Source: Asparagopsis taxiformis (lineage: Eukaryota > Rhodophyta > Florideophyceae > Bonnemaisoniales > Bonnemaisoniaceae). From it: a stretch of 64,000 nt of DNA. Below the pieces are notes generated by a model. That model ran no database searches. It was not told the origin of the DNA and worked only from the letters and a program-made list of their open reading frames with translations. The stretch is taken from assembly GCA_030407315.1 (NCBI GenBank), contig JALQPE010002660.1:1-64000 (forward strand), written 5' to 3'. Made by a program: the position numbers and the translations under genes. How positions within the stretch are numbered: the first letter of the stretch is position 1; each line of letters begins with the position of its first letter. Positions 1-43,225 of the stretch are shown in pieces.

Positions 1-12
1 AAGAAATCAAAT

Positions 13-185
13 CAGCAAAGTCATCGTTACGATGACTTTGCTGTAAGAAATCAAATCATTACAGCGGCCACAATTTTTTACCGGGTAAAAAATTCTTGCT
101 GATTTTTTACCCGGTAAAATTTTCTCACCACTGTAATCAAACCTTTCCTTACAGCAAAGTCATCGTAACGATGACTTTGCTGTAA
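13..185. repeat. Palindrome family A array, left edge
   Basis: Two copies of palindrome P1 (13-46, partial, and 149-185). Each arm reads TTACAGCAAAGTCATCG followed by its reverse complement ending CTTTGCTGTAA. Between them lies the second palindrome, P2, built on TTTTACCCGGTAAAA with flanking CATTACAGCGGCCA arms. Alternating P1 and P2 units recur at 787-1075, 5426-5840 and 61163-61605. The array is cut by the window edge. Confidence 0.9.
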
Positions 186-786
186 GCATCCCGGGTAAAC
201 GGCTTCGGCTGTAAGCGGTTGGGAGTTTCGTCCGTCTCCCACCCTGGGAAGGGTGAGAAGGGAAGTGTGGAGCCGGGAACATCGTACAACGATGGTTTGG
301 ACGACTGTTGACGGCTCTGGGGAGCACTCTGCGTCGTGCAAGCCTGGTTTGCGCTGGCTGCACTACCTGGTATTGAACGGTTCTGTGCGCAAAGTTTACT
401 CATGAAGGAGGTAGGGTGTTGTGTACCACACCAACCATAGTTACTAACATTTGCAGTGTACTCTAGTGATGTAATTATTATTCTAGTTTCTAACTATACA
501 ATGATATTAAGTAAGTCAGATGTGCACAGAGCATGGTCTAAGCCTAGCACGGTAGAGAAAGATGGAAGAAAGATTGAAGGGTAGGCATGCAGAGGTATGA
601 AGGCAGCAGTATGTGTAGACTATGGCAGTGGTAAGAAAATATTTCATGCACCAAAGGGTGGGCAGAGTGACATTAGAGAGGTGGTGTGTAGGGGGAAGGT
701 AGGTGGAGATGATGAAGGAGGACAACAGAAACGAGAGCGAGGGTTGAGACCAACGGCTTACAGATGGAGCAGTTTACCAGGGATGC
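186..786. other. Spacer without recognisable gene
   Basis: No long reading frame or domain is visible on either strand. Around 190-235 there is a short stretch (GGTAAACGGCTTCGGCTGTAA) that also occurs, altered, near 745-780, 5395-5420 and 5830, so it seems to be the outer edge of the family A array. The remainder is plain intergenic sequence. Confidence 0.6.
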
Positions 787-1075
787 TTACAGCAAAGTCA
801 TCGTTACGATGACTTTGCTGTAAGGAAAGGTTTCATTACAGTGGCCATGATTTCTTTACCCGGTAAAAAAATTCCTGGCCGCTGTAATGAAAACGTTTTC
901 TTACAGCAAAGTCATCGTAACGATGACTTTGCTGTCAGGAAACAAAACATTACAGTGGCCATGATTTCTTTACCCGGTAAAAAAATTCCTGGCCTCTGTA
1001 ATGAAACGTTTCCTTACAGCAAAGTCATCGTAACGATGGCTTTGCTGTAAGGATCCTTGGTAAACTGCCTGAGCT
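787..1075. repeat. Palindrome family A array upstream of ParB/dioxygenase gene
   Basis: Three P1 palindromes at 787-823, 901-937 and 1014-1050 alternate with two P2 palindromes centred near 862 and 978, spaced about 113 bases apart. The array ends about 330 bases before the start codon of the ParB/dioxygenase gene. Each P1 can fold into a near-perfect hairpin of 17-18 base pairs. Confidence 0.92.
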
Positions 1076-1402
1076 GTAATTGTCGTACAACGAAAAGTGA
1101 TGTGGAAGGTTCGGATTGGTCAACCGCTGAATATCATTACCAGGGTGTATACTAATAGGAATATGTCAGATCTCTAAGTTTCGCCTATCTTACTCAGCTT
1201 ACGCAGCAAAACAGCTTGTCGTTCAGATCTTCTTCTCTCTTTCTCAATCTTTCACTCTTCGTTTGTCAATCACTCACCAAAGCAATGGCTCAACAATCCC
1301 CCAACGCTTTCGACCGCCAGGTGCGCTCTGCCAGCCGCCGTGACAACGATTCTCCCACTCCTTCTCCCTCTCCTCTCTCCTTCTCTGGCCCCCCCTGTCC
1401 CC

Positions 1403-4400
1403 ATGGACGTTTGCGAAGCTGCTGCAGCGCTGACCCAGCTCAGCCCAGCACCTAAGCCCGTCCCCTCCCCCCCTTCCGCTTCCGATCCCGCGGTTGTCCC
1501 GACAATCGACGCTGGCGTTCCCGCAACTCCGCTTCCGGCTCAATCTGCCGAAGCGGCGCCAGCCGTCGAGGGATCTGGTGCTCCTCTGCCCAGCTCGCCT
1601 GCTCCGGACATGATCATCGCGTCCGGCAGCGACTTGGCAGAGGATGCGGAGAAGGTCGATGATCACAACGCTCGTGACATCGTACCGAACAAGCCTCTCC
1701 GCAGCACCAGGCTGGCCTACCCTGGCACAGTGCCCATCCCGGTGGATGTGGACTACGACATAAGTCCGGAGAGCTGCCGAAACATTCCAGTCTTCATTTC
1801 CCCTCTGGATGTTTCTCCTCCGGCAGTCGTGTCCAGGGTGGTCAGGCCGCATCGCGTTGATGAGTTGAAGAAAACGTTTCTCACTCAGGGATTTTCCGTG
1901 ATTGCTTCACGCGTGTCCGTCTGCGAGGTGATTGATTCCAATGCAAAAGTACGACTGCAATATGTCGATGGATCTCACCGAGTGACCGCGTTGAAGGCCA
2001 TTCTCGAGTCGGCTGGACCTGCTCCTGCGAAGGACAGTCCAGAGTGGGAGGAGTTTGTCAAGTCTGACATCTACCGTCGCTTTGGAACTATTCCAGTCGA
2101 CTTTCTCCTCCCACCGACTCGGCTTGGCCGGGATGTCTTCTGCTCCGAAGAAGTACTCCCGCTTTCACGGCTGATGAACTTCCACACCCACAATGTCAGC
2201 GAGGTAACAGTTGCTGACAATGTGTGCTCTGTGATGGAGTTCATCAATATCCACCGCCTGGGAAAGAAGAAGATCGAGCCGACCGTTCAATACATAAAAG
2301 AACGGAAAGCGCTGAGCTGGATTCGTCCGAGACAGCTCATGCGCTACGTCTCGATCGCGCGAGGGTTCAAGACCATTGAAAGCCCTGCTTTCAAGTACTG
2401 GTCGAGCATCCCGAACAGGCCGGAGTTCGTGCAGTTCTCTTCGACCGAGGATCTGGCTGGTGTACGGTGAACTTGTTGTTCAATGGGTCGTTCAGGAGTG
2501 CTCCGGATGTGCAGAAGTGTTTCATCCTGGAGATGACGGCGCGCTACACTTGTAGCCGTCGGTCGGCCGGGCTGAAACCGTACTCGGTTGGTACCATTGG
2601 GCAGGAATGGATTGCTGGTTTGTTGGAAATCTTCGGGTACGTGAAGGAGGTGGCCGAGTACTGGAACGTGTCGGATGTGTTGAGGATGCTGGATGGGTCA
2701 ATTCCCAGCGTGGGTGACCCGAGCAAGAGCTTCGACATTCGCTCGCGCGTTGTCGAAGTTCTTGCTCAGATGGTCCCCAAGAAGGGGTGCTGGGCAGACT
2801 TCCGTCCCAAGGAAGGCCCCCCCGATGGTTACAGTTACGAAAATATTTTTCCCCGTAAGAAGTCTGTCTTCGGGAAGGACGCCAGGAAAATGCTCCTGCG
2901 CGTCACTGGGTACCGCGACATGCAAATGCGGAAACGCTTTCACGCGATGTACCCAGACATCCCACATGCTGCGCTCCCAGCCACATGTGGTGATGATGCC
3001 CCCATCCCTTCCTCTTCCAATTCCTTGCCCATCCCTTCATCCTCCATTCCTTTGCCCCCACCACCTCAACTGGAATCTTCCAGCAATTCCGAGGTTGCCC
3101 CTGTTCCTGTCTCTACCCCTGCCGTGTCTGCATCCTCCCCTGCGGTGACCCCGGTCAAGCCGACTGCGCGTGGTCCCCAGGATGGCAGCGAACGCTCTGG
3201 TCCAGTTTCCCACGCCGGGACTGGTACCCCCAACCGTCCTGTCCAAGCCGCGCAGGAGCAGGTCTCACCGGCTTCGCAGCCTGAGCCTGCGACTCCGGCT
3301 GCCGAGCAGCACCCTGCTGCTCCGGCCCCCGCTGTCGAAGCTTCCCGTTCTGCATCTGCTAGCAGTTCGGGAAGCTCCAGCGATGACAGCTTCGTCCCTT
3401 CACCATCCGGTGGGGTTGGACAGAAGACGGTTGCGAGGATTTCGACGGAGGGCCCTACTCCCGAGAATGTGGTCGAGGGCAGCAGTGCGAAGGGCGGTGC
3501 AGATCCTGACGAAGATGTCATTGAAGTCAGTGATTCTGCACCGCCCGGAGTGGAAACTTCTGGGAGGAAAGTGATGCCCAGAAGGAGTACCCGCCTGCAA
3601 GCGAGTCGTTCCGGTCGTGGTGGAACGGCGGGTGGTGCTGTGGAGGTCGTCGAGCTGGAGAGCGCCCCCGAGGATGCGGGTGAAAACTCCATCCTCGGGA
3701 AGCGTAACTTGGAAGCCGCTTCTGCGACGCCCGAGCCTTCTACCAAAAAGAGAAGGCTCGGTGAGACTTCATCAAAGTCGTCGTCAAAGAAATCCAAGTC
3801 GGCTTCCCGAGGTCGCTCTCGGGAGCCGGTTCTCCAGTTCGACGACGCCCAGGAGAATCCCATTCCCGACAGCATCGTCGATGAGAATGTGGCCGCCGTT
3901 CTCCCCAGCGCAATTGCGTCTGGCAGCCGGATGAAGTACTATATGGAAAGTACGACGGTGGAGACGGTTCGGGCGGAAATGAGGGCGGCAGCATTCCAGG
4001 CAGCTGCATCGCCGGGTGCTGAGGATACGGTGGTGGACAGGTACTTTGCGGTGAAGAAGGCATTGTTGGAAAACTTGGGGGTTATTGTTATGGAAGGCCT
4101 GTTGGCATCGTCCACGGCTGGTAATGCGACGCATGAGTTGTTCGGTCACTTCGCTAGGCAGTTCCCGCTGGTTGAGGAGGTTGAAAAACCCTCCCAGCAG
4201 TCTGATTCTAACGATGACGACAGGGAGCCACAGGACGAGCCGCCAGCTTTCGCAAAGCCCGGCTTCGATCCTTCGCCGTGGCAGTTCATCCACAACGTGG
4301 GTGATGCGAAGGACCGCATCGATGGTGGTCGTGGGCGCCTCTCTCTGCCGCGGCGTGAGTTGTGCGACAAGTTGGAGGAGGGGAATTTGGAGATGTATAA

Positions 4401-4920
4401 GAACAAGTTGGTGGCAGAGCTTGCTCTTGGTGTTTGTGCGGAGTTCTTGAAGTTGGGAATGGAGGGTGAGGATCCTGTCTTCTTCCCGAAGACAGGATTG
4501 CGGCTGCTTCTTACAGCAGATGGGGCTGCGGACCAGGATGGGCACACGGACTTCAAGGTAGCGACGAATAGTGTTGGAAGTCCTACCACGTCTCCATCAT
4601 ATTTCATGATGTCGAGCGGAGCCGATGGGTTCTCTATAGTAGTTGCCCCTTATAGTCATGTATGCCTGGCCAGTCCGGGCGCCGATATGTGGAAGGTTCC
4701 CCCTCTCATCTTTTGGGTGCCACCCTATTCCGTATTGGTTGGTCGCGGTGACCTTTACCATTACGGGGTCGGCTTCAGCCGAGGAGATCTTCCTGCAGGC
4801 GAGAAGTTAGTCTATGGCCTGCCCACGCGCGGCCACATCTACTTGAAGACGGAGAAGGACGTCCTCACGGACCACATCCACACCGTCGAATATTACAAGT
4901 ACGATAGGAGCAATAGATAG
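1403..4920 (+). CDS. ParB/Srx-like domain protein with C-terminal 2OG-Fe(II) dioxygenase-like domain (copy 1)
   Basis: The protein has three parts. First comes a ParB/sulfiredoxin-like domain with the signature YVDGSHRVTALKAI near residue 187. A long disordered stretch rich in Ser, Pro and Glu follows, with basic patches such as KKRRLGE that look like nuclear signals. The C-terminal domain keeps dioxygenase hallmarks: GHTDF (iron ligands H at 4543, D at 4549), the distal histidine in RGDLYHYG (4759) and a later Arg-x-His. Its substrate is unknown; oxidation of a DNA base is only inferred from the family pattern. The frame shifts by -1 at 2466-2467 (GG). The decayed paralogue at 62.4 kb aligns across that point without a gap, so the two halves are one gene. 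ATG 1403 (good context) is chosen; an ATG at 1285 would fit only if one C were extra in the C7 run near 1389-1395. Confidence 0.72.
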
Positions 4921-5425
4921 CATATCAGAAGTATTAAAACCTATACTACTGTTCCCTGCTATAAAGTTCTGTCTTTCTCATCTCAACATTGTTACCTTAG
5001 CCCATTTTTCAGTTCTCATCTATACATCTGTCCTTCATCTCATAGTTTAGTGCTACTCAGCAGATTGCTTGCTACTTTTTAATATTAGTCTACAACGTTA
5101 TATGATTTTACTAGCTAGGCCGTAGGGGGAGACTAGTTTCAACCCTTGACAACGCGCAGATTTCGACTACGAGAGCCGTCACTGTGATAAATTATTTGTA
5201 GAATTTTCGTCTATCTTCCCACCTACACTAGGCTACCTATATATATACAGGGTATAACCTGAACAGAGACCACGTGAGGTAAAATACTCCTGAGAGCTGC
5301 TCACAGCCGTACAGACCTTTGCTGAGCAATTTACCCGACTTCAAACTTCGCTTCTTACCTTTACCAGGATGAGAGAAGGACGAAACTCCCTGCTGCTTAC
5401 AGCCGAAGCCGTTTACCAGGGTTCC
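4921..5425. other. 3' flank of copy 1
   Basis: A/T-rich sequence without a credible gene. A short piece at 5395-5424 (GCCGAAGCCGTTTACCAGGG) repeats the array-edge motif seen near 200 and 760. It is taken as the boundary between gene flank and the right-hand palindrome array. Confidence 0.6.
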
Positions 5426-5840
5426 TTACAGCAAAGTCATCGTTACGATGACTTTGCTGTAAGAAAACAAATCATTACAGCAGCCACGATTTCTTTACCG
5501 GGTAAAAAAATTGTGGCCGCTGTAATGATTTGCTTTCTTACAGCAAAGTCATCGTAACGATGACTTTGCTGTAAGGAACCGTTTCCTTGCAGTGGCCAAA
5601 GAATTTTTTACCGGGTAAAAAATCAGCAAGAAATTTTACCGGGTAAAAAATTGTGGCCGCTGTAATGTTTTGCTTTCTTACAGCAAAGTCATCGTTACGA
5701 TGACTTTGCTGTAAGAAAACGTTTCATTACAGCGGCCACAATTTTTTTACCCGGTAAAGAAATCATGGCTGCTGTAATGATTTGTTTTCTTACAGCAAAG
5801 TCATCGTAACGATGACTTTGCTGTCAGCATCCCCGGTAAA
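5426..5840. repeat. Palindrome family A array downstream of copy 1
   Basis: Four P1 palindromes (5426-5462, 5538-5574, 5678-5714, 5790-5826) alternate with P2-type palindromes carrying TTTACCGGGTAAA cores. The segment 5575-5665 is almost identical to 61313-61405, including a doubled P2 core, so arrays 56 kb apart have recently shared sequence. Together with the array at 787-1075 it brackets the ParB/dioxygenase gene. Confidence 0.92.
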
Positions 5841-6131
5841 CGGCCCGCACTGTAATGGGGTGACTGCTTCTCCTACATCGCTCTGTTACTGGTGTTCTAC
5901 ATGCTGCGTTGCTACACAATTTCGCACTCACATCTTTCTAGTTTCTCTCCCTTTCGTATCCATAGGTATAGCAGTTGAAAAGTGGATAGTTTGCACTCCA
6001 GGCCGCAGATGCCTTCCTGCAGTCATGTCACGATTGTTGTAGTGTAGTCTATAATATCTAGCGCTCTTGGAAGATGATGCACAGTCTATTGTCTCTGTCA
6101 ATGCGTGTTTACTCAAATCTATCAAAGTAGC
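5841..6131. other. Spacer before the methyltransferase-SET gene
   Basis: About 290 bases with no gene. It contains the 3' end region of the minus-strand methyltransferase-SET gene. No terminal repeat is seen. Confidence 0.6.
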
Positions 6132-9100
6132 TCAGTTAGCTGGCCAATATTTTCTACCATAGTCAGCAAATATCTCCTCATCAGCTTCAACGTCTCTGGT
6201 CAGAACGACCTTGACAGCATGGGGATTCTTGATATTCGAAGCAAAGTCCGGTTTGTCTATGGCATCGCCTTGTCGAAACTCGGCTGACTGTGTTCGACTC
6301 ACCTCGGTCGCTTTCTCCGTTCCGTCAATGACCCGACAATCATTGAGGTAGCTGGTACAATTATAGACCGCTGGAACGAGCCAGACCTTCCGAACAGGTG
6401 CACCCCTCCCTATGTACGTGGTTTCCAATTCCATGTTGTAGTCCTGGAACCTCTCTCCTGTGCACCCAAATCCTTCCGGGCCGTACATCACTGATCTCTG
6501 CGGTTCCGAGTCTCGAATCTTCGCATAGAAAATCGTCCCGTTGTACCAGCCAATGACCGTCCCCTTCTTCAGTTTCTTCGCCGCGAATACGCCAAACCCA
6601 CCACCTCTTACCTCCGATTGCGAAACATAGACACCGTAGAATGCGGCATCAGCAGCCAGAATCGCGTCCGGGTCTATGCTCCAAAACGAGTGCATGTCCT
6701 CGGCCGGCCACTGGTCCATAGGCACCCCGCTCAATCTGTGAAGCATAGAACCGTCCTTCTTCATTGACGCAACGAACACAAGCAGATGGTTCGGCAATGC
6801 TGTCACAGCAGGTAAACCTTCTGGTGCATCTGAGATGTGCTTCTGACGAAGCCTTGGAGCTTTTCCTGTGACCGGTACCGACTCGTCCCCAAGAATACTC
6901 TCCACCTCACGCTGCAAGATCCCCCCATATCGCCCGGCTTTCACCTCACTGACGAAAGCATGCAGTATCCACTCCTGCGATGCATCGTGGCACCTTTTTT
7001 CCTTCTCACACCCAATGAACCGACGATACGTACCATCCCTCAACGTCATACACGCTATGGCTGTGCTGTATGTTCCCGAGAAGAAATCCATCACGATATC
7101 GTTCTGCTTCGAAAATCGTTCCAGAAGCTCACGAAGAGTGGTCAACGCCTTCTGCTCATGGCGCAGTCGGTTGTTCTGCCCATCGTATTGAGCTTCACCA
7201 GCCGACAACCTCGGAACGTTGTCAATCGCGTTGGTGAACCCAGGGTGCCTCGATATGTCCGGATTGTGCAACCTGTAATCCACCATATCGTATGCAGCCA
7301 TACCCTTCCCCCGCTTATACGCATGGATAACGAAATCGTGCATATTATGCAGTGTGCACGTTTTCGTCGATGGATTGGACGTAAAGCTGTGTGGTCGGCG
7401 AGATAGCACGACTGGAACACTGTCCACAATCATCTTGCCAGGCTCGGCATTTCTGATTGCATCCATCCATGCCACGAGTTGGCGCACGCTGGAATAGATT
7501 AGAGCATGACCGCCAGGCCGAAGAACTCGAACTATTTCACACGCAACACTCGCCAACTCTTCCGGCTCCAGAATATCGTACTCCGAGTTTTCTCTGCCGC
7601 CTTCCCGCCTCGTGTTGAATGGAGGATCAGTGAGCACAAGCTGAACACTGTCCTCCAACACGCCATCTTCCAGGAAACTAATTTTGTCCTCCACCTCTTT
7701 GGCTACATCAGTGGCGTCACAATTCACAGTGTGAATGTAACGCCCCATCACAGCTTCCAGCTTGGTGACATATTCCGGCTTGGATTCCTTTCCGACGTCA
7801 ACGAGCGGTGCTTCTGTAGGCGATACAGTGTCAACCTCCATAGCGTCATCCTCGGCCGCACCTTCTCTTGTTGCTGTTTCGCTAGCAACCGCCGCATTAT
7901 CGTCCTCTCCACCACCGCGCTCCAGCCTAGCCTTCTTCCTCTGTGGCTCCAGACTATCCTCTTCTATATCCTCGCTGCCATTGTTTGGCACTGCTGCGGA
8001 TATTTCCATCTGCGCAGGTGCACCTTCAAGGATGCCAGGCTCGGGCGTATCCTCAAGACTGTGCAACTCATCCATGGTCAGAGGAAGCTTTCGTTGCTCT
8101 CGGGTTCGCAATAACCAAGCCTTCAGCCTCCTCTGACCATCCAGGGCATGAGACGTGTTCAACTTGGCTCGCATGAACGAGTTCAATCCGAACTTGTCAG
8201 GAGTGTCGAAAAGCAAGGCTCGAAGTCTCTGCATCAGCTGACCACGCTCGGCGAACACATTCACCTCAGTGACACATTGGCGTATCGACAGCAGGAAGGC
8301 GCTTGTCAATGATCGCAGCCTTGCATCCACAGCCACTGGAAGGTCGGCACAGAACCCGTTTTCACTGTCTACAGTTTTCGGGACAATGGTCAGGTTTTTC
8401 CGATGCTCCTCGACCGCGCAGCCATCAGACCGATTCGGGAGTGACCTGAAGCAAAGGCTCGCAGGATCGAATACCATGAACGGCCAGCACATCGATTCAA
8501 CATCCTCATACCCCAACACTCTTGCCCCGGTATCCCACGCAGCTAACACACGGTCGACAACAAATCCAAGCTGGTTGGCTTGCGCACTGGATGTTGCAAT
8601 TCCAACCATTCCACCACCACCAATGGCCCCGGATGTGGCTCTGGCCCGCCTAGATGGCGCACTGCCCATCTCCTTACTGCGAATAGCCAAGATACACTGG
8701 CACATCATAACCATCAGCCTCCTGAACCGCTTCTGGCTAGCCTGCAAAGAATCTTGCATGTCGGATGTAGCGCCGTCTAGAAAGTACCTGCTCGAAAGCA
8801 GTTCGCGGTTCAGTGGAGAGGACAATTCTCCGCGGGGTGTCTTGCCAAACATTTCGACGGCACGAGAACTAGTCACCCCCACCTGTTTCGGAAACTCAAC
8901 CATCCTCGGAGAATCACCCATCTCTGCATTGAGTCCCCATGCATGACAAAACATTTGCCACAGACGCAAATCAATCGCACTCGAATCTTCTGCTCGGTGA
9001 TACGGCCGAAGCACAGCCAGGATAGACATGCATGAGCTGTACTGCGGTTTACCACTCAGGCTTGAAGCAATTTGGCCGCTTGGATCGCAGGATTTGATCC

Positions 9101-9608
9101 AGCCCAACACATCGGCCATCCTCACAGACGAAATATGAGCGTACTTGTCCTTTCCTTTTTGGACCCAGTACTCGTCTCTGAGATCAACGGCGATCATCAG
9201 ATACTCAACAAACATCATGCGCCTTTGCAGGCCTGCAATGTCGTTGGATGTCGTCGCTCTCACACGGTCCAGCACAACAGCAGTACTGCTGTTGGTGTCC
9301 GCCACGATAGACTCTTCTCGCATAGGAATCGTAACGCCAGGAGGAAAGACGCCCTTCTCCATTCCACGTACAATTGCCATGCAGCGGTGCGCTCCATCCA
9401 ATATCTCCAGAACGCCTTCTCGAAACCTGCCAGTCACGGGATGAGCTGTGTCATAACCGCTGTTGCGAATGCTCTCCATGAGCGCTTCCACATGACTTGC
9501 ATCAACATCGCGAATCGATACGAATTTGCTGACTTGATTGGGGTCGATGAACACCCATCCGTCGTGCTTTTCACCGTGATTGTGGAACGTTCCTTCCATG
9601 GCGAACAA
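6132..9608 (-). CDS. ParB-like / DNA amino-methyltransferase / SET fusion protein
   Basis: This is an uninterrupted frame of 1158 residues. Residues 20-110 form a ParB/Srx-like domain with ILDGAHRCMAIV at 69-80. Residues 120-540 are helical and unassigned. A nuclear-signal-like QRKKARLER lies near 556. The methyltransferase spans about 615-890: motif IV is LTDPPF (661-664), then RPGG, then motif I DFFSGTYSTA (841-850). This order marks a beta-class enzyme, and DPPF favours N6-adenine over N4-cytosine. A SET domain fills 1000-1158: GGGFGVFAA, the NCTSYLNDCR segment in place of the usual NHSC, and the terminal EEIFADYG with the catalytic-type Tyr at 1150. It could methylate both DNA and a protein such as a histone. 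Start at 9608; a second ATG three codons on has the better context. Substrates are inferred. Confidence 0.88.
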   Translation of the reverse strand: MFAMEGTFHNHGEKHDGWVFIDPNQVSKFVSIRDVDASHVEALMESIRNSGYDTAHPVTGRFREGVLEILDGAHRCMAIVRGMEKGVFPPGVTIPMREESIVADTNSSTAVVLDRVRATTSNDIAGLQRRMMFVEYLMIAVDLRDEYWVQKGKDKYAHISSVRMADVLGWIKSCDPSGQIASSLSGKPQYSSCMSILAVLRPYHRAEDSSAIDLRLWQMFCHAWGLNAEMGDSPRMVEFPKQVGVTSSRAVEMFGKTPRGELSSPLNRELLSSRYFLDGATSDMQDSLQASQKRFRRLMVMMCQCILAIRSKEMGSAPSRRARATSGAIGGGGMVGIATSSAQANQLGFVVDRVLAAWDTGARVLGYEDVESMCWPFMVFDPASLCFRSLPNRSDGCAVEEHRKNLTIVPKTVDSENGFCADLPVAVDARLRSLTSAFLLSIRQCVTEVNVFAERGQLMQRLRALLFDTPDKFGLNSFMRAKLNTSHALDGQRRLKAWLLRTREQRKLPLTMDELHSLEDTPEPGILEGAPAQMEISAAVPNNGSEDIEEDSLEPQRKKARLERGGGEDDNAAVASETATREGAAEDDAMEVDTVSPTEAPLVDVGKESKPEYVTKLEAVMGRYIHTVNCDATDVAKEVEDKISFLEDGVLEDSVQLVLTDPPFNTRREGGRENSEYDILEPEELASVACEIVRVLRPGGHALIYSSVRQLVAWMDAIRNAEPGKMIVDSVPVVLSRRPHSFTSNPSTKTCTLHNMHDFVIHAYKRGKGMAAYDMVDYRLHNPDISRHPGFTNAIDNVPRLSAGEAQYDGQNNRLRHEQKALTTLRELLERFSKQNDIVMDFFSGTYSTAIACMTLRDGTYRRFIGCEKEKRCHDASQEWILHAFVSEVKAGRYGGILQREVESILGDESVPVTGKAPRLRQKHISDAPEGLPAVTALPNHLLVFVASMKKDGSMLHRLSGVPMDQWPAEDMHSFWSIDPDAILAADAAFYGVYVSQSEVRGGGFGVFAAKKLKKGTVIGWYNGTIFYAKIRDSEPQRSVMYGPEGFGCTGERFQDYNMELETTYIGRGAPVRKVWLVPAVYNCTSYLNDCRVIDGTEKATEVSRTQSAEFRQGDAIDKPDFASNIKNPHAVKVVLTRDVEADEEIFADYGRKYWPAN

Positions 9609-10112
9609 AGGTAGAGTTTTTAAGAAAGGGATAGTTGGTTGCTGCTTGACCAGGGTGGCGCAAAGCAGAAGTTGGTTGTTTAAAACAAAGTGTCAGCGAG
9701 TGGTAGCACTTCGGTGGCTGTTTCCTTTCCACCCCTGTCCGAACCTTTACAAGATAACTACATCGACTGTTAGCTCAATAATCAATGTAATACTAAAGTA
9801 ATACTCAAAATATTTTTCCATGCAATTTATTGGGCCCCGTAACATCTCTAAGCGTATCTTTGTAGTCCAATCGTATGCATCCGACATTCACTTCTAGAAC
9901 GATTATTCACATCAAATTTTATGCTGCAATCAGTTCATGGCAGACATCATCCACACTGACGTGTCAATTTTGTCAATTGTCCATTCTATTTCTACACCAC
10001 CTAAACATCTCTTCTGGACCTTTCCAATCCTCCTAGTATATACTACTCTTTAGCAGAAGGTAACGGTTAGGCTTTCACTAATACAACAATTCTATCCCAT
10101 AGCTATCCCAAC
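9609..10112. other. Divergent intergenic region
   Basis: About 500 bases lie between the start codons of the minus-strand methyltransferase-SET gene and the plus-strand gene at 10113. Promoters for both presumably lie here, but no motif stands out. No palindrome of families A-C is present. Confidence 0.55.
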
Positions 10113-11474
10113 ATGCTTCCTCTCGCTCCAAACGACGTTATAGAAGTTCAATGGGAACTTCGGCCGTTTGGGAGGAAACGAAAAATTGTGTGGTGGTCTG
10201 CAATCGTCAAGGAAATTACTCAGGTCAAGACTGAAACAGACCCATTCCTCCATGCATTGCTCGAATACAAAGCTGAATATGGTTTCGACTCTACCCTTTC
10301 TCAAGTCAAGATTTCAGATCGTAACGAGCTCGTCGACAAGGATTCCGGAAGGGTTCTCCCGTGGCGAAGTGGTGAGCTTCGCAGTATGGACTCACCTGCA
10401 TCCCCAGCAGAGAGAGACCCGGACTACGGCATTGACCACACTCGCCACCGCCACCGCGGCATCCTTCAAGATTGCACTGCGGATCAAATGAAGAAGACCA
10501 TAGCAGAAATGCTGGCAAGATTGGAAAAGCTGGAGTCAGCTGCCAAACATCCTCTTCCCCCTCCATTCGATTCCAACAGCTCCATGACCTCCTCTGCTCT
10601 GACTGTATGTAGCATTCTGTTTCAGAAGCTTGGTGTGTACACGGACAAGCCCCTCTCCCTCCGGATGACAAAATCCGAGCACTCCAGGGGAATGCGACAA
10701 ACATCGCAAGAAGAAATCAGAGTACAGGCTGACTGCTCCCTTGCTCAATTCCGCACTATTGCCATTCAATGCAAGGCGAAAGAGAATCGTGATGTTCTCT
10801 TCCTGCCGTCCTTTGAGGACATCACCTTTCCCTCTGGAAATGAGTCGGATCTTTCCATCATTTTCCCCACCTTTCAGGCACTATGTGACTCCATAGGTAC
10901 CTCGCAACACGGGTTCCAGAAAATATTGGTGAAGAGCAGGGCGGAACGCGATGGAGGCAGCTCATCGATTGTCCGAATTTTAGGAAATCTAGTCGACGTT
11001 GACTGCTCTCATGATGCTCCTTCTTCCGCATTTCTCGTCGGCTCATCTGCTTACGTCCTGTCCAGCCCAGACCAACGTATGACAGTTCTTTGCAGAGACT
11101 CCTACGAGTTTGACCATGTCAACAATACATTTTTACATCCCCTATGTCTTAGCCAACTATCACAGTCTAGCATCGTGGACTCTTTCCACCTACGTGATAA
11201 GGCTACTGTTACTTATGGAGCAACGTTTTCGTTACTGTGGAGACGTATTCAGCGCCGAGCTTGTTACAGCACTTTCCAGCCTCTATCAACCGCAGAGACG
11301 TTTGGTACACTACATCTACGCTTACCTTGCTGTATTTTCAGTGGTACTACTATATGCCAGGAGCTTGAAGACATTGGCTATGAGGCTATCTCTCGTCTTG
11401 GCTTCAATGCGGATTCAGACACTACCCACCCACCCTCTCCTCCACCTGCCACCTGCAGTCCGGAGCAAAAATGA
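10113..11474 (+). CDS. Unrecognised protein with Tudor/PWWP-like N-terminus
   Basis: A clean 453-residue frame starting at an ATG in the context CCAACATGC. The first 85 residues (VQWELRPFGRKRKIVWWSA, then a Leu/Tyr strand and VLPWR) have the tryptophan-rich beta-strand pattern of Tudor- or PWWP-like chromatin readers; this is an impression, not a proven match. A short coiled coil (MKKTIAEMLARLEKLE) follows around 125-145. The rest has no recognisable motif and ends in a Pro/Ser tail. It is divergent from the methyltransferase-SET gene and convergent with the next gene, so it may belong to the same cassette. Confidence 0.6.
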   Translation: MLPLAPNDVIEVQWELRPFGRKRKIVWWSAIVKEITQVKTETDPFLHALLEYKAEYGFDSTLSQVKISDRNELVDKDSGRVLPWRSGELRSMDSPASPAERDPDYGIDHTRHRHRGILQDCTADQMKKTIAEMLARLEKLESAAKHPLPPPFDSNSSMTSSALTVCSILFQKLGVYTDKPLSLRMTKSEHSRGMRQTSQEEIRVQADCSLAQFRTIAIQCKAKENRDVLFLPSFEDITFPSGNESDLSIIFPTFQALCDSIGTSQHGFQKILVKSRAERDGGSSSIVRILGNLVDVDCSHDAPSSAFLVGSSAYVLSSPDQRMTVLCRDSYEFDHVNNTFLHPLCLSQLSQSSIVDSFHLRDKATVTYGATFSLLWRRIQRRACYSTFQPLSTAETFGTLHLRLPCCIFSGTTICQELEDIGYEAISRLGFNADSDTTHPPSPPPATCSPEQK

Positions 11475-11749
11475 TAAAGCACACCTATCCGTAGTTATCC
11501 TGTTCCTGGGTATTCCATTCTAGAGCTCCTGTGGCCATCAATTTCTAGTAAAGACGGATACCCTCGCCCCTTCCTACTTCGACTATTCCACTACCTGTCT
11601 CTGCGCTTTTCCTTCGACTTGACACTATCGTCTGACTGGTTTCCTGATGTCTCGCATCTATCTACTTCCATCTATTACAAAATTCACCTCAACAGAAATT
11701 TTATTTCTTCATTCTTCGTCTACTACACCGAAACTGGTTTCATCCGATA

Positions 11750-13276
11750 CTACTCCCCTTCATTCTCGATTTCATCATCGACGAATACCTTCACATATTC
11801 TGCATCTCCTCCGTCCTCTTCCATAGACCTGAAGCTCTCCTCCAGCACTGATTCCCCCCCATCGTCTACGTTCAGTTCTTCATATCTATCACGCGATATA
11901 GTCAAAACCTCCTCATTCATGAACCGACTACTCACCCGCTCCCCGGGAAGAAGCAGTTTCACTGCTTCATTGATTTCCCGGATTTGCGCTCCTTCCACCT
12001 CTGTTCCACTTTGAAATTTCAAAATCGTTCGGAACCCGTATGCAAGTATGTAGATGAATTGCAAGGAGTATTCTGAACGTCGCAGGAACATGTTCTTATC
12101 AGAACATTGCGTGTAGGCGACTGCAAAGTTCAGTGCAACCTCTACTAAATTGATCCTCCTAGTCAAAAACCTCTTGTCCGGTTCTCCAATTATTTGAACT
12201 TCGTACTCGACTTTGAATAGCATTTCTTTTCGCACTGCAATGAAGTCGCGAAGAATCTTCATATTCTTGTCATCCATTGCTGCACGCTCCGCTGCATTCA
12301 TTTTCCTCTGCGCCGAGTACAGACTTGGAACTGACTCAATGTCCAGCCCACCGTCGTGCAAATGATGCTCCATTCGGACTGAACCTTGAAACCCACTGTA
12401 TAGAACGAATCCAAGATCTCGGATGAACCGGTTTCGCACATGATCTCTGGACTTGTTCATAAACCCGGTCACTGCTGTGAGTGCCGATTTCGTCACAGTG
12501 ATGCCTACCTCCTTTCTGTGCAACGGCCCATTGTCACCAACCTTTCTTCGCTTCTGCTTTCGAGCGGCCCCATCACTTCCCTCGGACGTCCCATGCATTC
12601 CATCCATGCGAGCAGAGTCCGTTCCGCGAATTGTCTCCTCAATGGTCCCGGTAGTCACATACCCCCGCGCCCTCCACCGTTCGATACCTTCCGACGTTCC
12701 ATTGGAGCTGGAACGGTCTCCTCCCTCTCTGAAAGAATTGTTTTGACACGTATTCTTGATTAAAGAGGTCACAACTTGGCAGCGCAATTCAATGTGGTTC
12801 CGGCCGGCAAGCGTCCTATTGAACACATCCTTTCGCTCATTGCTCTGCCTGGCGAACATCAGCGTATTGATTAGCTGGCATCCGTTGAAATGCCTATCCC
12901 TCTTATCCACCATTGCCTTCGTGTACGTTGGAACAACAGCACACAGCACAGCACACACCATTTCGAACGTGAACGATTTCTCCGCATCCTGCGCAATGCG
13001 GAGACGTTCCCTGTCCTTCTCGGAGGCGATCTTCTTCGGATGTCCTTGTCCCTGGCTCAGAAGCCCATCGACGATGCTCTTGACCTCCTGCATATCGGTG
13101 TTTAGCATGGAGACAGTCTTGGCGACATTTCCGAGAGTCTCGCGTAATTGAATGGTGCTCTTCTCGACGGCATCCATTTTATCACTCAGGGCTTTCAACT
13201 CTGCAGTGATGTTCGAAAAGCCCTCACGCGTTATTTCGGAAAATGCGGCGATGCTTACGGAGGTTTCGGGATTCAT
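11750..13276 (-). CDS. Unrecognised coiled-coil protein
   Basis: A clean 508-residue frame with a good ATG. Residues 15-75 are predicted coiled coil (SNITAELKALSDKMDAVEKS and onward). Residues 95-215 are helical with FEMVCAVLCAVVPTY, followed by a basic KQKRRK patch that could be a nuclear signal. The C-terminal half is helical with VEVALNFAVAYTQCSD and an acidic tail. I do not recognise the family. Its general plan, coiled coil first and then a helical domain with a late hydrophobic helix, resembles the gene at 33841-36124, but direct homology is not evident. Confidence 0.6.
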   Translation of the reverse strand: MNPETSVSIAAFSEITREGFSNITAELKALSDKMDAVEKSTIQLRETLGNVAKTVSMLNTDMQEVKSIVDGLLSQGQGHPKKIASEKDRERLRIAQDAEKSFTFEMVCAVLCAVVPTYTKAMVDKRDRHFNGCQLINTLMFARQSNERKDVFNRTLAGRNHIELRCQVVTSLIKNTCQNNSFREGGDRSSSNGTSEGIERWRARGYVTTGTIEETIRGTDSARMDGMHGTSEGSDGAARKQKRRKVGDNGPLHRKEVGITVTKSALTAVTGFMNKSRDHVRNRFIRDLGFVLYSGFQGSVRMEHHLHDGGLDIESVPSLYSAQRKMNAAERAAMDDKNMKILRDFIAVRKEMLFKVEYEVQIIGEPDKRFLTRRINLVEVALNFAVAYTQCSDKNMFLRRSEYSLQFIYILAYGFRTILKFQSGTEVEGAQIREINEAVKLLLPGERVSSRFMNEEVLTISRDRYEELNVDDGGESVLEESFRSMEEDGGDAEYVKVFVDDEIENEGE

Positions 13277-13789
13277 CTTGACCTTGCAATTGGAGTTTGC
13301 TAAAAGGAGAATTGCTTTGAAGGAAGGATGTCACGCTTAGTACAGCAGTGTTGTAGCAAATATCATTTCAGTGGATGCATCCATCCTGGTCTACTCTACA
13401 TAATAATAATGCTTCCCAGTGCTCCGTAACGGTTATTTTTCATAATTTAGTGGTGGATGGTGCGTATTCTTTCCTTTGCCACCACCCACGTCCTGTGCAT
13501 ACCACACCTCGCTACCAGACTGACGTCTCCTACTAGACACTTTCAATGCAAAGATAGATAGGTATAATTTGAAATGCTAAACTCAACATATTATAGCTAC
13601 TCTGTACATTCTCTCCTTACGGTGAGACAAACCAGATATGTTCTGTTCCCCAATCTTCCTTTCTACAACGTCCTATTCAGCATCTAGCTTCCCCGCACCC
13701 AACTATCTGTAAAGCACCATCACAATTAATATAGTCGTATACCACACACCATTCCAATATTTACCTTCACACCAACACTATGCTCCATA
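13277..13789. other. Spacer without gene
   Basis: A/T-rich intergenic sequence upstream of the coiled-coil gene. No supported reading frame, and nothing repeated elsewhere in the window was noticed. Confidence 0.55.
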
Positions 13790-14160
13790 TTTCCTCTAAG
13801 TCCACTCCACCAGACAGTGTTGTCAAACAATGCACGGTACTACCCGCAGACAATACAATTTGCTATCTACACTACTGTCTACAGATTTCCCCAGACAGTG
13901 CAGTAATACAGTACAATGTATTGTCTCAGACAGTAAAATGTACTGTCTGCACATACTGTCTGGCGGCAACACTTCCGGACAGTAAAATTTACTGTTCTGG
14001 ACAGTAAATTTTACTGTTTTTGGTACTGTCCAGATTTCGTGCCAGTTTACTGCTGCAGCAGTATTCTGAAATTTCCAGACAGTAAATTTTACTGTCTCCG
14101 CGCACTGTCTTGGCCAGACAGTAATTTTTACTGTCTCAGACAGTAAATTTACTGTCTGTT
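13790..14160. repeat. Palindrome family C array
   Basis: About ten short inverted units built from CAGACAGTAAA and TTTACTGTCTG, some joined as CAGACAGTAAATTTACTGTC. Spacing is irregular. The same vocabulary (ACAGT...ACTGT) fills 42640-43225. The array runs into the reading frame of the SET fragment that follows without an intervening stop near the junction. Confidence 0.85.
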
Positions 14161-14162
14161 TT

Positions 14163-14990
14163 CATTCTCAACACCGTAGTGGAGTCAACGTCGCATTTCT
14201 CCACCAGGTCTCTATTGGGAACTTTGCCCAGCAGTCCACGACTGCCCTACAGCAGCTGGCTTCTGCTCGTCTGGGAACTTCGGAAGAGAGTTCATCATTG
14301 AAGACAACCTCAAAAGTGCCCATTTCAACCAAACTTCCGCCCCACCTCATCAGCTTTCTTACTGGCATCTGGTGCATTCCGGACCAGCACAAGGAGTTGA
14401 CAGACCAGCCCGTTGATAAGTGGCCACAATCGCTGCTGGGTTTGTTGTCTACCGTGGATATTAAAACCCTGCTGTCAATAGACGCGATGGCACACAATGT
14501 ATACGTCGCAGCGTCAACGATTCCTTCGGCTGGTGACGGTCTGTTTGCAAGAGTGGATATTGATCCTGGAGATATCGTAGGGTACTATTTCGGGTCTGTG
14601 GTTTACAAGGATTTGTACAAGGCCAAGTTGAAGACTTTCGGTACTGGACCTACTTCCTTCTCGATTGAGCGTTTCCAGAAGTACGCTGTTCAAATTAAGG
14701 ATGCAAATGTGAAATGTCTGATGCCATCCACGTCTGCAAATCCAATCTTCATTGTTCCATTCGAGTATTGTGCGGCATCTAAAATCAACGACCCAACGTT
14801 TGTGGACCCAGCGGAGGGAACTGAGCGTCCGTCGCGTTCTGCTAATGTTAGTTTCTCTTCCCCCATACAAGAAGTTCTTGATGAGACCTCTGTATCAACC
14901 TATCAAGTTGTATGCGTCACTGCCAATGTGCCCATTTCAGCTGGCTCAGAGTTATTCATCGAGTACGGACACGAATACTTTTCCGTATAA
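14163..14990 (+). pseudogene. Orphan SET domain, 5'-truncated relative of the methyltransferase-SET proteins
   Basis: The frame is homologous to the last 220 residues of the methyltransferase-SET fusions. It has a pre-SET stretch (LPPHLISFLTGIW, DQPVDKWP), GDGLFARVDIDPGDIVGYYF, an AASKINDPTF segment where SET proteins have their NHS motif, and the closing SELFIEYGHEYF. No ATG lies in frame before the conserved part except one at 14488 inside it. The frame is open upstream into the family C repeats. It is best read as a piece cut from a larger gene. A functional small SET protein made from a 14488 start would lack the pre-SET part. Its 3' end (from 14897) is duplicated in inverted orientation at 15.7-16.1 kb. 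Confidence 0.7.
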
Positions 14991-29430: not shown

Positions 29431-32400
29431 TCCTGATTTGAATTAAAATTTGGGCTATTCTCAAAAACATGCACATGTGAACATGTTTTTGAGATGGGGA
29501 TGTGCCGTACGGCACAATCGACCGCCCAAATCGATGTTTTTTTGCAATATTTTTTCTGCCCGAAATTGTATACAATTATACAAAATGAAATTCTATAGAA
29601 TTTCTGGTCTGGCCAGCAATGCATCTGAGCTGGACATCCCCATGTCCAGTGGCCGTCCGGATGTCGCTCACCTGGTAAGCGTGATGCACCTGTGACAACC
29701 TATGTGACTGCAGTCACAGCCGCCATGGCGGCCGTGCAGTACAACCCTCAAAGACAGGGAATCACAATCTTTTTAAAATTTTTCTCTACCACGTATCTGT
29801 CACAACTTATTACCTACACCGGTTACGGGTTTCAAGACCTTTCCAGTGCTGTGTACCCGTATACTCTGTTCCGTTCGATATCAACCAGTGTTCCTCACGA
29901 AAGAGTGCAAACGTCACGAGATACGTCGTCAAATTTGACTGTCTCGCCGAGCGGTCGCCATCCTGTACCGAATTTCCACTCATTCCATTATGACGAATAA
30001 GCGCAGACGCAACAGCAATCCGATCGTTGACGACGCAACCGTGCCAATTCTGCGCGAACCCGCTAGCCCTTGGGAGGATTCTAGTGACATGGGTACACGT
30101 CGAAACGTAGGTCGCGCCGCCCGCGAAACTACTCTCGCTGGCAAAGACTTCCTCCGCCTCTTGCTGGATTTGTTCGCCCACTCAAGTTTCGCAGACTTGA
30201 CGGACAAGCCGGGAGGTTTCACATACGCGGACCTTGGCGCTTGGGTTGCGCAGGGCACAGAAGAACAATTTCTGGCGCTGCAAGGTCGACTCAGCATGGC
30301 CTTCAGCGGTCGTTCGAAGAATGCTGGAGTCGAGGCGGATGTTGCCGAAATCGTCATGGCAGAGATGAACGTTGAGCGAGCCAAGCAGATTGTTCGTCTG
30401 GCATTACCGATTGCCGAGTTTTCAAGACAGGATGAGCGTATCGGGCAATGGGTTGAGCACTGCATCCTTTCTGGGATCGTGCCGCAGACCTTCCTTATTG
30501 GATGTAACATGCTTCCTTCGCCACTACAGGCGCGCGCAGCGCGGGGAACCAAGCGCCTTCGTTCTTGCTCCACCGGAAACGTTCGAGGTATTGATGTATT
30601 TCCAAGCGTTGTCTATCATCCGAAATCACAACAAGAACCTGCCGCGTCGCCGAATAGGCGACGCGGCCGAAGAGGGGAACGAAGCCGCACGCGTCCCAGC
30701 CCATCGGAAAAGCACTAATCGAGCTTGTTACGTGGTTCAAGTTTTATACCATGCTTGGACCGATGTGGCCTTCGCCGCAAAGTTTTCCAGCTTCGAAGAG
30801 TTGATGGCGCCGTACATCATTTTCGACAGCAGTGAGCATTGGTTTGACGTGCTCGATGAAGGTCTATTCGCACCGATGGAGCAGAAGCTAGATCTCTACC
30901 ACGACAAAGCTCCCCTATCTCATCCTGATGGATATGGTGGAAAAGTAGAGACAAGAACCAGTGCGCAGCACAGTGCATTTAGGGACCTTGTGAGGAAGTT
31001 CTTCGACCGGTTGCAGTTTCTTATCGTCAACCCGGACCTGTACACCTGGCCGGAGTCCGACCGCTGGGGGGCGCTGGAAATATACTTGTCAAGCGGAAAT
31101 CCGGACAAGCTGCCAGCGTACTTTGACACCCTCGACGAAGACGTTATGGCTGTCCTCCGCCCGGCACCACAAGCCGCGGACGCAGAAAAGGTCCCCAAGC
31201 CGGTTGATGACACTCCCACTCGTCGCAACACAGGAGGGAGAGGTTTGGTTCCGTCGACAAGACACACAACCAGGCTTCAACTTGGACCTGGGAGGACCAG
31301 TCTTACTGCCCAAGGGCCGTCTCCCCCGTCACCGTCACCCCATGCGACAGAAGAGCAGGAAAGTGAAGGGCAGGCTCTCGCAAAGGACTTTCTTTCGAAA
31401 ATGAGTCAGTATTGCCGGGTGTACGACGTCCCTTTCGAAGATTTGGTCAGTGCCGACGAGAGCCGAGAACACGTGCCCATCACGGGCAACGTTCAGCTCA
31501 TTCTGACTGATCCGCCCTACAATGTTCGTCGTAAGAGGAACGATTCCAACTCTTCGTACGACAGGCTAACTGCAGAAGATATGCAGGCTAGCATCGAAGT
31601 GTTTGACGAGCTGTTGCGCCCCGGTGGCCACGGCATCGTGTTCTGCTCCGTTTTGCAGTTCTACGAATGGTTCCATTACTTGGAAACGTACAAAGGACCG
31701 CAGTCAGAAGGCCCAACCGATGCTGCTGCCAGTGATGACGGGTCGGATGAAGAAGAGGTTACGTCCATGAATTCGGACTCCGAAGCATCGCAGCACAGTG
31801 GCGAAGAAAGTGCGGATGAGGAGGAGGACGAGGAGGACGTCGTTCGGAATTCAGTTTTCTTCGTTGACGAGGTACCTCTGTTGTTTGTCCGACTACCTGG
31901 GCACCTCTATCAAATGCCGGGGCGGAAGAGGTACCAACGCATGAACATGGCAGAGGTCGCTATCCACTTCTGGAAGCGAGGTGTTCCGTTCAAGACTGGA
32001 AGCGAGATGGTGGCCTATAGGAACCACGGATACATGGACGGCACGTACCCGGCGTGGTGCAACGTCACCATCAATATGCCCGCCATCGATTCGAATGAGA
32101 TGGTGTGGCGAACAAGGAGCACAACCGGTGCTACGGTCAGAGTTCGTGCAGAGCAGAAGAGCGTCGCTCTCATGATGGAGTTGATCAGCCAGCATTCACA
32201 GCCTGGTGATATTGTTGTCGATCCATTCTCTGGCACTTTCGCAACGGGAAAAGCAGCTATGAGCTTGCCTGAGCACCGTGTTTTCGTCGGCAGTGACATG
32301 GACAAATTGTGTGTGGCACGATCGCTTCCAAAGCTGTGTGCAGTCATGTCACGTGTAATTCTTTCAAACAACACTGACATGAGGGTCACGACAGAAGCGA

Positions 32401-33608
32401 AACAGAGTGCTGAGAAGTTCTTGGCGTCCCCCTCTGTCACGATGCGTACGCAGAGGGAACGCAGGATCATCGAACCCCCACCTGGCCTTCCCCTGTACCA
32501 GAGGTTCCCGAAATATATTCGGCAGTACCTCTGGCAGCTGTGCCCAGAGTCGATTGCGTCGCACGAGCACATGGAAAAACCGGTACATTATTGGCCACCT
32601 TCCCTGCGCCGCTGGTTGCAAACTGAAAACCCTCGCGTGATGCGGGCACACGATTGTGTTGCGAAAAAATTGAGCGTTCGACCATCGCTGATTAAGCATC
32701 CAAATGCAGGAAGAGGGCTCTTCGCTGAACAGACATTTAATGTTGGCGACGAAGTATGTGCATACTACGGAACTGTTGTGTACTCTGATATGAGCAAGGA
32801 GTCGATGAGGTTCGCGTACGGAGAGGGTCACATGGCGATAACGAAGGAAACATTCTTGATGTATGCCATCAAGCTGTATGCAACAGCGGAGGACGACGAA
32901 AACATCGAGCATCCAATTTGGATTGTTCCGGCTCCGTTCTGTTCGGCGCAGTTCATCAACGACCCGCGGTATTTGCGAGGTGAGGACACTCCGGCGGAAG
33001 ACACCAGGCGGATGGCCAACGTCGAGTTTGTCGAGAACTACAGCAGCGGTTCGACGGGGAAGAAGCTCAAGGCGAAGGACCTAGAAAATCCGAAGATCAT
33101 TGTAGTACGTGCAATCCGCGATATCCGTCCGGGGCAGGAGCTCTACGTTCATTATGGGACAGCGTTTAGAGCATGGAATTAGGGAACGAAAGATGTTTTC
33201 ATTTCGACTACAAATAAAGCTACGTTCCAGAGTTGAAGTATATCATATAATGCAGCATGTCCAGCCACCATTAGTCCAGGGTGAAACCTATTGAGCAGTA
33301 CTCGCCTGTCAAAAACAATCGTTCACACTCTAGGTGCACTTCGTCCGAGCAGTGAACCTGACTGCTTGGATGCTGTTATGCGTGCAGATGCAAAATACAC
33401 GACCAAGTTGAAATGGACGCCCGGTGGATGTCCAGCTCAGTTGCATTGCTGTCCAGCCCAGAAATTCTACAATTCAGGGCAGAAAAAAATATTGCAAAAA
33501 ACATCGATTTCAGCGGGTCGATTGTGCCGTACGGCACACCCCCATCTCAAAAACATGTTCACATGTGCATGTTTTTGAGAATAGCCCAAATTTTAATTCA
33601 AATCAGGA
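29431..33608. mobile_element. Single-gene element carrying a methyltransferase-SET gene
   Basis: A left repeat (29431-29639) and a right repeat (33426-33608) are inverted copies, about 90 percent alike. Both open with TCCTGATTTGAATTAAAATT and include a small inner hairpin (CTCAAAAACATGCACATG...AACATGTTTTTGAG) and a GCCGTACGGC core. The left copy has an extra stretch of about 20 bases near 29572-29596. Similarity may extend outward to GAAGACG (29414 and 33617). No target duplication could be identified. Only the methyltransferase-SET gene lies inside and no transposase, so movement would need help in trans. Confidence 0.8.
29990..33182 (+). CDS. DNA amino-methyltransferase / SET fusion without ParB domain
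   Basis: Paralogue of the 6132-9608 protein. The N-terminus (MTNKRRRNSN at a good ATG) aligns with the helical region after the ParB domain, so the ParB part is missing and no trace of it is seen upstream. Motif IV is ILTDPPYNVRRKRN (DPPY at 31509-31520), followed by LRPGGHGIVFCS. An acidic insertion of about 60 residues follows. Motif I is VDPFSGTFATGKAAM (32217-32260). The beta-class order and DPPY favour N6-adenine. The SET domain runs about 32690-33170 with GRGLFAEQTF, CSAQFINDPR and QELYVHYG. One shift of +1 (or -2) near 30525-30550, in GCGCGCGCAGCGCGGGG, is needed to join the two frames. The gene is enclosed by the inverted repeats of its own element. Confidence 0.78.
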
Positions 33609-42434: not shown

Positions 42435-42639
42435 GAGCTCTCGCTATAACAGGACATAGTCCAAAAACCGAGGCTTCACCCAAGGGCGGGGATCCGCCTC
42501 TACCACACTGTGGAAATACAGCATAGCTGGTGTATCCCCAATGGACAAACACAAGGGCGGTGAGTTCTCGCCTTCCCATCGGGAATCTTCCAACGTCGAA
42601 TTCAGCTCTGCTGTGGGTACACTACGGTGTTGAAAAGGG

Positions 42640-43225
42640 GGCCTCAGACAGTACTGCGAGACAGTGATTTTTACTGTCTGAGACAGTAAAAATCACTATG
42701 CGGCAAATGAAAATTAATGCCACACTTGGAGACAGTGATTTGCACTGTCTGGCAGACAGTACGGAACACTGTCTGCAGACAGTAAAAAACACTGTCTCAC
42801 AGTACTGTCTGAGGCAGTGAATGGAGACAGTAAAAATTAATGATTTATTCAATAGTTGGATATGATGTAATTTACTGTACTGGGCAGTGTTGGCGGATAG
42901 TGTTTTGTATTGGCCAAGGCAACATGGCCGGATAGTGAAATACGCTGCCTGGGACAATAGATGGAACCAACACGGTGCACTGTCCTGGGCAGTACCTGGA
43001 GACAGTGATTTTCACTGTCCTGGGCAGTACCTGGAGACAGTGATTTTCATTGTCCTGGGCAGTACCTGTAGACAGTACTTTGTGCTGCCCTGGGCAGTAC
43101 CTGTAGACAGTATTTCGTGCTGCCCTGGGCAGCACCTGTAGACAGTACTTTGTGCTGCCCTGGGCAGCACCTGGAGACAGTATTTCGTGCTGCCCTGGGC
43201 AGCACCTGGAGACAGTAAAAGTAGT
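42640..43225. repeat. Palindrome family C array, second locus
   Basis: Left part: palindromic pairs such as GACAGTGATTTTTACTGTC. Right part: about seven tandem units of 32-34 bases, CCTGGGCAGTACCTGTAGAC then AGTATTTCGTGCTG or AGTGATTTTCACTGT. The shared ACAGT/ACTGT vocabulary links it to 13790-14160. Confidence 0.88.

Follow-up and report, generated by a model that had tools for sequence, protein, structure and literature searches.

We asked what kind of gene occupies positions 6,132 to 9,608 of a 64,000-nucleotide stretch of the red alga Asparagopsis taxiformis (positions 1 to 64,000, forward strand, of contig JALQPE010002660.1 in assembly GCA_030407315.1; hereafter the window), which a preliminary description had read as a single clean frame of 1158 codons joining a ParB-like domain, a DNA amino-methyltransferase and a SET domain, and had presented as one enzyme that could write a DNA mark and a histone mark at the same site. 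One protein does join these three parts, and its methyltransferase and SET parts are also backed by the predicted structure. The reading as a single chromatin enzyme is only partly supported, since comparison of its copies places the gene as cargo of a ~26-kb DNA transposon with the ends CACTACGGTGTTG..CAACACCGTAGTG and subterminal AGACAGT arrays.

The frame lies on the minus strand and runs for 1158 codons from a TTG within a surrounding open frame of 1186 codons. Its first ATG is at residue 4 (9599-9597), the likely methionine start of a protein of 1155 amino acids (aa); a database copy of that length (P0001) begins there. Profiles and homologues bore out the single frame and its three domains, for which the coordinates and the supporting evidence are as follows.

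6132..9608, minus strand: protein with ParB-like, N6/N4 amino-methyltransferase and SET parts (frame, Pfam, homologues, AlphaFold model)
9312..9578, minus strand: ParB-like domain, aa 11-99, with DGAHR at 71-75 (PHROG profiles, phage tblastn; an AlphaFold block with a predicted local distance difference test score, pLDDT, of 69-90)
6939..7748, minus strand: beta-order DNA amino-methyltransferase, aa 621-890 (Pfam, profile against the PDB, fold searches)
6156..6599, minus strand: SET domain, aa 1004-1151, with N1089, D1090 and Y1150 (Pfam, profile, fold searches, alignment)

At E<=1, Pfam detects only the methyltransferase and SET domains in this protein. Both lie above their Pfam cut-offs; Pfam ParB had no match in the protein, and the ParB-like part was recovered by its motif, PHROG profiles and the phage tblastn search. 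Structure prediction had been set beforehand as a test of the architecture, and fold searches of the full-chain model recovered both the methyltransferase and the SET fold.

The methyltransferase is the strongest of these assignments by E value. Pfam N6_N4_Mtase (PF01555) matches residues 655-878 above its curated cut-off (E 2.3e-16), and TDPPF (660-664) precedes DFFSGT (841-846), the beta-class motif order that the preliminary description had proposed alongside DGAHR. In an alignment of 13 proteins, this one included, both DPP prolines are invariant (13/13) and Asp661 is present in 12; DPP[FY] is found in 10 of the 13, the exceptions being P0008 (DPPQ), P0009 (YPPY) and P0013 (DPPL). Judged by sequence and fold, specificity probably leans to N6-adenine over N4-cytosine, with CcrM as the nearest enzyme.

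Pfam SET (PF00856) matches residues 1004-1151 with E 4.1e-6 (27.6 bits against a cut-off of 22.4), and SET7/9 and SETD8 were among the matches of the fold search with the predicted structure. With the SET part of a profile built from the 13 proteins, EZH2 scored a whole-sequence E of 1.9e-6, with no single stretch passing alone, and KMT2C 1.6e-5. When decay of the catalytic sites across homologues was checked, most key residues proved to be kept in the 13 aligned proteins, with the exception that Ser1108 replaces here the SET-motif Asn of the other 12. This serine, together with a SET match weaker than that of the methyltransferase and the absence of Pfam SET at 1e-3 from 3 of the 13 proteins, would fit a SET domain that is inactive or acts on a non-histone protein (the transposase, or itself), so that only the DNA methyltransferase matters. 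We consider this unlikely, given that Asn1089 is kept in 13/13 aligned proteins and Tyr1150 in all 12 that reach that position.

The ParB-like part is of phage type. PHROG phrog_1033, "ParB-like partition protein", matches residues 33-81 with E 0.003, and in a database homologue (P0002) with E 6.2e-5. A tblastn search of residues 1-130 against phages returned 27 records at E<=10, 12 of them listed; among those 12, some of which are one phage twice, 6 are labelled ParB-like or ParB N-terminal and the rest otherwise, and the single row below E 0.05 is a Leptospira phage "ParB-like protein" (E 4e-5). DGxHR, the P-motif with the essential Arg, is present in 5/5 aligned ParB-like sequences. Bacterial ParB-like domains are described as NTP-dependent DNA clamps (PMC12704722, cited, like the papers below, from part of its text).

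P0002 shares all three domains, with 43% identity over 99%. Among the aligned database homologues it alone has the ParB part, whereas Pfam finds the methyltransferase in 13/13 aligned proteins and SET, at a threshold of 1e-3, in 10/13. The wider family thus reads, from these profiles, as methyltransferase plus SET; ParB was either gained in this branch or lost elsewhere. Two scans went beyond the database proteins: of 53 pattern matches in viral contigs none was a relative by tblastn, and a scan of genome contigs gave 107 stretches and 6 loci (five bacterial, one from an archaeal metagenome-assembled genome), all methyltransferase frames and all, judged by eye, without a ParB motif or SET.

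The window itself holds a member of this wider family.

30372..33182, plus strand: family B, methyltransferase plus SET without ParB, a 936-aa frame (Pfam, homology; a longer relative, L045:430-3630, has 1067 aa)

The family B protein is 22% identical to the ParB-bearing protein (E 2e-42) and is matched by ten database proteins, one of which is its own copy; P0005 of the 13-protein alignment is a copy of family B from the same assembly. SET places in the assembly were scored for 150 of 1661 candidates, of which the top ten (50-101 bits) are other SET genes, and all 7 places fetched from the large group at ~34 bits (L044-L050) match family B at 98.3-99.3%. A 34-mer of its motif occurs exactly 803 times (reversed control 0), although it misses one of the 7 fetched copies.

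How is the three-domain gene itself distributed? The assembly that contains the window comprises 141 Mb in 3156 contigs, and a 34-mer from the methyltransferase occurs in it exactly 408 times, with no occurrence of the reversed-pattern control. All 40 scored copies, the best 40 of 3828 candidates, were full length, 100% identical and free of stops. Twenty copies were fetched, the window among them; in the main DNA match (at least 5.4 kb) the remaining 19 have an identity to the window of 99.67-99.94%. Four copies taken without score selection comprised one intact, two frameshifted and one without the 5' half. The 20 top-scored copies show 6 variable sites, 5 of them synonymous and 1 not; these loci were chosen by protein score, so the ratio is not evidence of selection. 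Copy number and the termini described below rule out a single host gene, and a chance frame is excluded because of the full-length copies and because P0002 shares all three domains. Prokaryotic contamination, misassembly or chance is hardly credible as the source of the gene: the methyltransferase and ParB parts are indeed of bacterial or phage type, but full-length copies are spread over many contigs, a full-length homologue with 43% identity exists, the protein has a SET domain, and a Plavaka transposase is present on the same contig. Genome size, the SET genes and the Plavaka transposase likewise point to a eukaryotic host.

The copies share their ends, and these ends define the element. 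Two copies are represented in the window, one by its right part and one by its left.

1..14181, no strand: right 14.2 kb of one element copy, the contig starting inside it (right terminus common to L035, L036, L037 and L038)
14169..14181, minus strand: right terminal inverted repeat CACTACGGTGTTG (copy comparison)
13812..14157, no strand: right subterminal AGACAGT/ACTGTCT array (13 sites in 13800-14181 against 0.09 expected)
42620..64000, no strand: left part of a second copy, interrupted at 45876-58112 by ~12.2 kb of other DNA (matches contig C1569 to 45875 and again from 58113)
42620..42632, plus strand: left terminal inverted repeat CACTACGGTGTTG, second copy (copy comparison)
42646..43216, no strand: left subterminal AGACAGT/ACTGTCT array (19 sites in 42620-43700 against 0.18 expected)
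44997..45875, plus strand: candidate transposase open reading frame (ORF), first part (a 1288-codon frame in the uninterrupted copy L051:1418-5281, minus strand)
58113..61041, plus strand: candidate transposase ORF, second part (880-aa frame 58399-61041; CxxC, as CHIC, by eye)
10113..11474, plus strand: ORF of 453 aa, no family (Pfam, PHROG scans)
11750..13276, minus strand: ORF of 508 aa, no confident family (Pfam, PHROG scans)

Expected array counts are from mononucleotide shuffles. The right end was placed at 14181 by copy comparison: beyond it L035, L038 and the window each have a different flank, L037 has another element copy, and in L036 the contig ends. The left end was seen at window position 42620 and at C1569 87757, where the copy measures 26,546 bp between its termini. 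Exact counts in the assembly were 593 for a left-end 45-mer and 207 for a right-end 51-mer (reversed controls 0), the latter missing variants such as that of L037. Pairing of ends with the methyltransferase 34-mer covered 58 of the 207 right ends (contigs up to C548) and 100 of the 408 motifs. At 44 of these 58 ends the 34-mer lies inward in the same orientation, at 6.39-6.56 kb in 39 cases and at 5.24 kb in 5, and at 14 it is not so placed; for 56 of the 100 listed motifs, no exact match to the right end lies within 12 kb.

Elements of the EnSpm/CACTA type are described (PMC12730594) with CAC..GTG ends and with C(2)C and H(3-4)H motifs, the wider clade having duplications of 2-5 bp. With inverted repeats at its CAC..GTG termini and motif arrays next to them, the element likely belongs, on sequence grounds, to this superfamily; the assignment is likely rather than proven because the candidate transposase ORF has no Pfam match. 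Two other outlines were rejected. A 37-kb element spanning the window's two ends is ruled out by C1569, which shows 45876-58112 to be a separate insertion in the second copy, and no viral structural gene was recognised among the scanned element ORFs to indicate a virus-like element, the sole structural-type match being a "head scaffolding" PHROG (E 0.001, residues 14-66 of the 508-aa ORF) that we did not trust.

Copies of the element also vary in structure. At C1569 61212 (L037) a second element copy, cut at the window equivalent of 13362, stands head to head with the right end of the first; a nested insertion was rejected here, as the fetched far flank is not a continuation of the interrupted sequence. 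Over 5 kb the left parts of L051 and L053 agree at 99.98%; that of L052 is 98.3-99.1% identical, with breaks that fall at the palindrome array. Tandem units of ~35 bp, with one AGACAGT site each, lie at 43000-43216 in the left subterminal region and form a longer run in L051. Imperfect long palindrome arrays built on TTACAGCAAAGTCATCGTTACGATGACTTTGCTGTAA, with stretches like ACCCGGTAAAAAAT, are found at 1-1079, 5397-5855 and 61156-61606, and their arrangement differs between element copies.

The element also encodes two proteins that pair a ParB-like N-terminus (DGSHR) with a C-terminus carrying HxD..H..R.

62320..63281, plus strand: first ParB-like/oxygenase-like gene, N-terminal part, second copy, IDGSHR (frames 62320-62943 and 62697-63281)
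1340..2470, plus strand: second ParB-like/oxygenase-like gene, N-terminal frame, VDGSHR (ORF, alignment)
2467..4920, plus strand: second ParB-like/oxygenase-like gene, C-terminal frame (HxD as H214/D216, H286 and R309, in the numbering of piece 3904-4917)

Both genes are split into frames in the window. The first is one 1059-codon frame in L040:5822-8998 (minus strand), and the second is broken in L040 at another place. The HxD, H and R residues are invariant in 3/3 sequences, namely the two element proteins and the database protein P0016 (991 aa, its parts in the same order, 30% identity over 38%). We take HxD..H..R to be the signature of 2-oxoglutarate/iron oxygenases; TET/JBP Pfam families gave no match in these genes at E<=1. 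From their motifs, the companions are putative erasers beside a putative writer, with related N-terminal domains.

What might an element do with such genes? The architecture, the hundreds of near-identical copies with common ends and the presence of these genes on one element are observed, whereas enzyme activities, substrates, targeting, any effect on silencing and transposition itself are inferred. Most likely the three-domain protein would mark DNA and chromatin of the element itself, either to withstand silencing or to adjust transposition. The reading we favour, tentatively and with somewhat less than even confidence, is that these marks keep the element's chromatin permissive against host silencing. 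The ParB-like part would clamp or spread on element DNA, the methyltransferase would mark adenines on the clamped DNA, the SET domain would mark nearby histones or another chromatin protein, and the ParB-plus-oxygenase-like proteins would erase or change methyl marks at those sites. This is preferred because N6-methyladenine accompanies permissive chromatin in many eukaryotes (PMC12695648) and because, in soybean, mobility of a CACTA element is associated with low methylation of its subterminal repeats, which are hypomethylated in the mutable line (PMC4219821). If true, a single chain uniting DNA and SET writers on a highly amplified element, alongside ParB-linked oxygenase-like genes, would link selfish DNA to dual marking in eukaryotes, and the protein may be a source of targeted adenine-methylation tools. 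The stronger version, in which the transposon carries a complete self-addressed kit of a dual DNA-adenine/histone writer and erasing or converting oxygenases, guided by related phage-type ParB-like clamps, is rather unlikely, though a serious prospect; the element would then set up and revise a chromatin state of its own and not hijack that of its host.

Several results weigh against this proposal at one or another of its steps. In addition to Ser1108, no ParB/Srx chain is among the rows shown for fold searches with the full model, and a profile search for ParB against PDB sequences reached sulfiredoxin at E 1.1 and SbnI at E 1.6, neither significant. The model of the oxygenase-like domain has a pLDDT of 32, too low for a fold test. 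A target duplication of 2 bp was seen in 2 of 4 copies (TA/TA and GC/GC), the others having GT/TT and TT/TA, and the candidate transposase, besides having no Pfam family, matched the neighbouring Plavaka transposase with E 0.069 at best. Finally, the family B motif is about twice as frequent as that of the ParB-bearing gene (803 against 408), so ParB is not needed for success.

The dense terminal AGACAGT arrays, the soybean hypomethylation just cited and the presence of a writer and putative erasers within one element would suit control of transposition, the reading that we rank second. Methylation of the subterminal repeats or termini would then let the transposase recognise its own ends, copies that have just been replicated, or free target sites, with the oxygenase-like proteins resetting the state. 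Dam control of Tn10 is a model for this, and the readings considered here are not mutually exclusive. We nevertheless regard transposition control as doubtful, GATC being absent from both terminal stretches examined, no target motif being known and the SET domain having no obvious role in it.

Comparison with the bdelloid N4CMT raises another explanation. That enzyme has a chromodomain reader, is a host gene acting on transposons and makes N4-methylcytosine (PMC8885841); here there is a SET writer, the gene is element cargo and the methyltransferase is nearer to N6-adenine enzymes, and no C-terminal chromodomain as in N4CMT was found in the protein (Pfam, E<=1). The protein might nonetheless silence its own family with repressive DNA and histone marks, limiting copy number or excluding rivals, much like the N4CMT/SETDB1 loop but element-encoded. 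N4CMT marks transposons for silencing (PMC8885841), and the 13-protein profile scores EZH2 as well as KMT2C for the SET part; hundreds of near-identical copies, however, argue for recent bursts, which makes such self-restraint quite improbable.

Protection of the element's own DNA and chromatin, the reading preferred above, would draw on components with precedents elsewhere. DIRS retrotransposons carry a DAM-type methyltransferase and are thus eukaryotic mobile elements with an adenine methyltransferase; they are retroelements, and we know of no ParB or SET fusion among them. Phage and prophage ParB-CTPase-N6_N4 methyltransferase fusions likewise hold a ParB-like part and PF01555 in one protein on mobile DNA (PMC12704722), whereas the present protein belongs to a eukaryotic transposon-like element, has an extended middle region and ends in a SET domain, a fusion not named in the part of that paper cited here. 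The HarbingerS and MuDR elements of Phytophthora are also DNA transposons with a SET methyltransferase gene (PMC12730594), but of other superfamilies, and with neither a DNA methyltransferase nor a ParB fusion mentioned in the cited part. Fungal EnSpm, Plavaka, KDZ and other TET/JBP transposons similarly carry DNA-modifying oxygenase cargo, EnSpm with 5'-CAC..GTG-3' ends (PMC12730594); in our element the HxD..H..R proteins are instead ParB-fused, match no TET/JBP Pfam family and stand beside a DNA methyltransferase. Transposons with SET, transposons with TET/JBP and fusions of bacterial methyltransferases with chromatin domains are each known by themselves, and what is unusual here is the combination. 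Our literature search, with subscription papers mostly outside it, found no paper describing a ParB-methyltransferase-SET protein, in agreement with the preliminary description, to which no described enzyme combining all three was known.

The DNA around the two element copies contains further fragments of related and unrelated elements.

14298..14990, plus strand: SET-like remnant just outside the right terminus, with INDP and ELFIEYG (by eye)

The element may have landed in another methyltransferase-SET gene at its right end. Within the DNA inserted in the second copy, a VDGMHR ParB-like motif (by eye) and partial methyltransferase frames lie at 53642-54884; the second of these frames matches PF01555 with E 8.4e-6, just under the cut-off, and they are perhaps another ParB-methyltransferase lineage. 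The same insertion, 45876-58112, holds two overlapping DUF7869 frames at 55451-57963 (the second with E 1.4e-40), perhaps the protein of a different transposon. A Plavaka transposase frame at 36881-38476 (PF18759, E 7.6e-23) suggests that other CMC-type elements are present in the region. Inverted repeats of 111-216 nt, 87-95% complementary and with CTGCAGTAA-containing palindromes, lie at 15068-16195 and resemble a small palindromic element.

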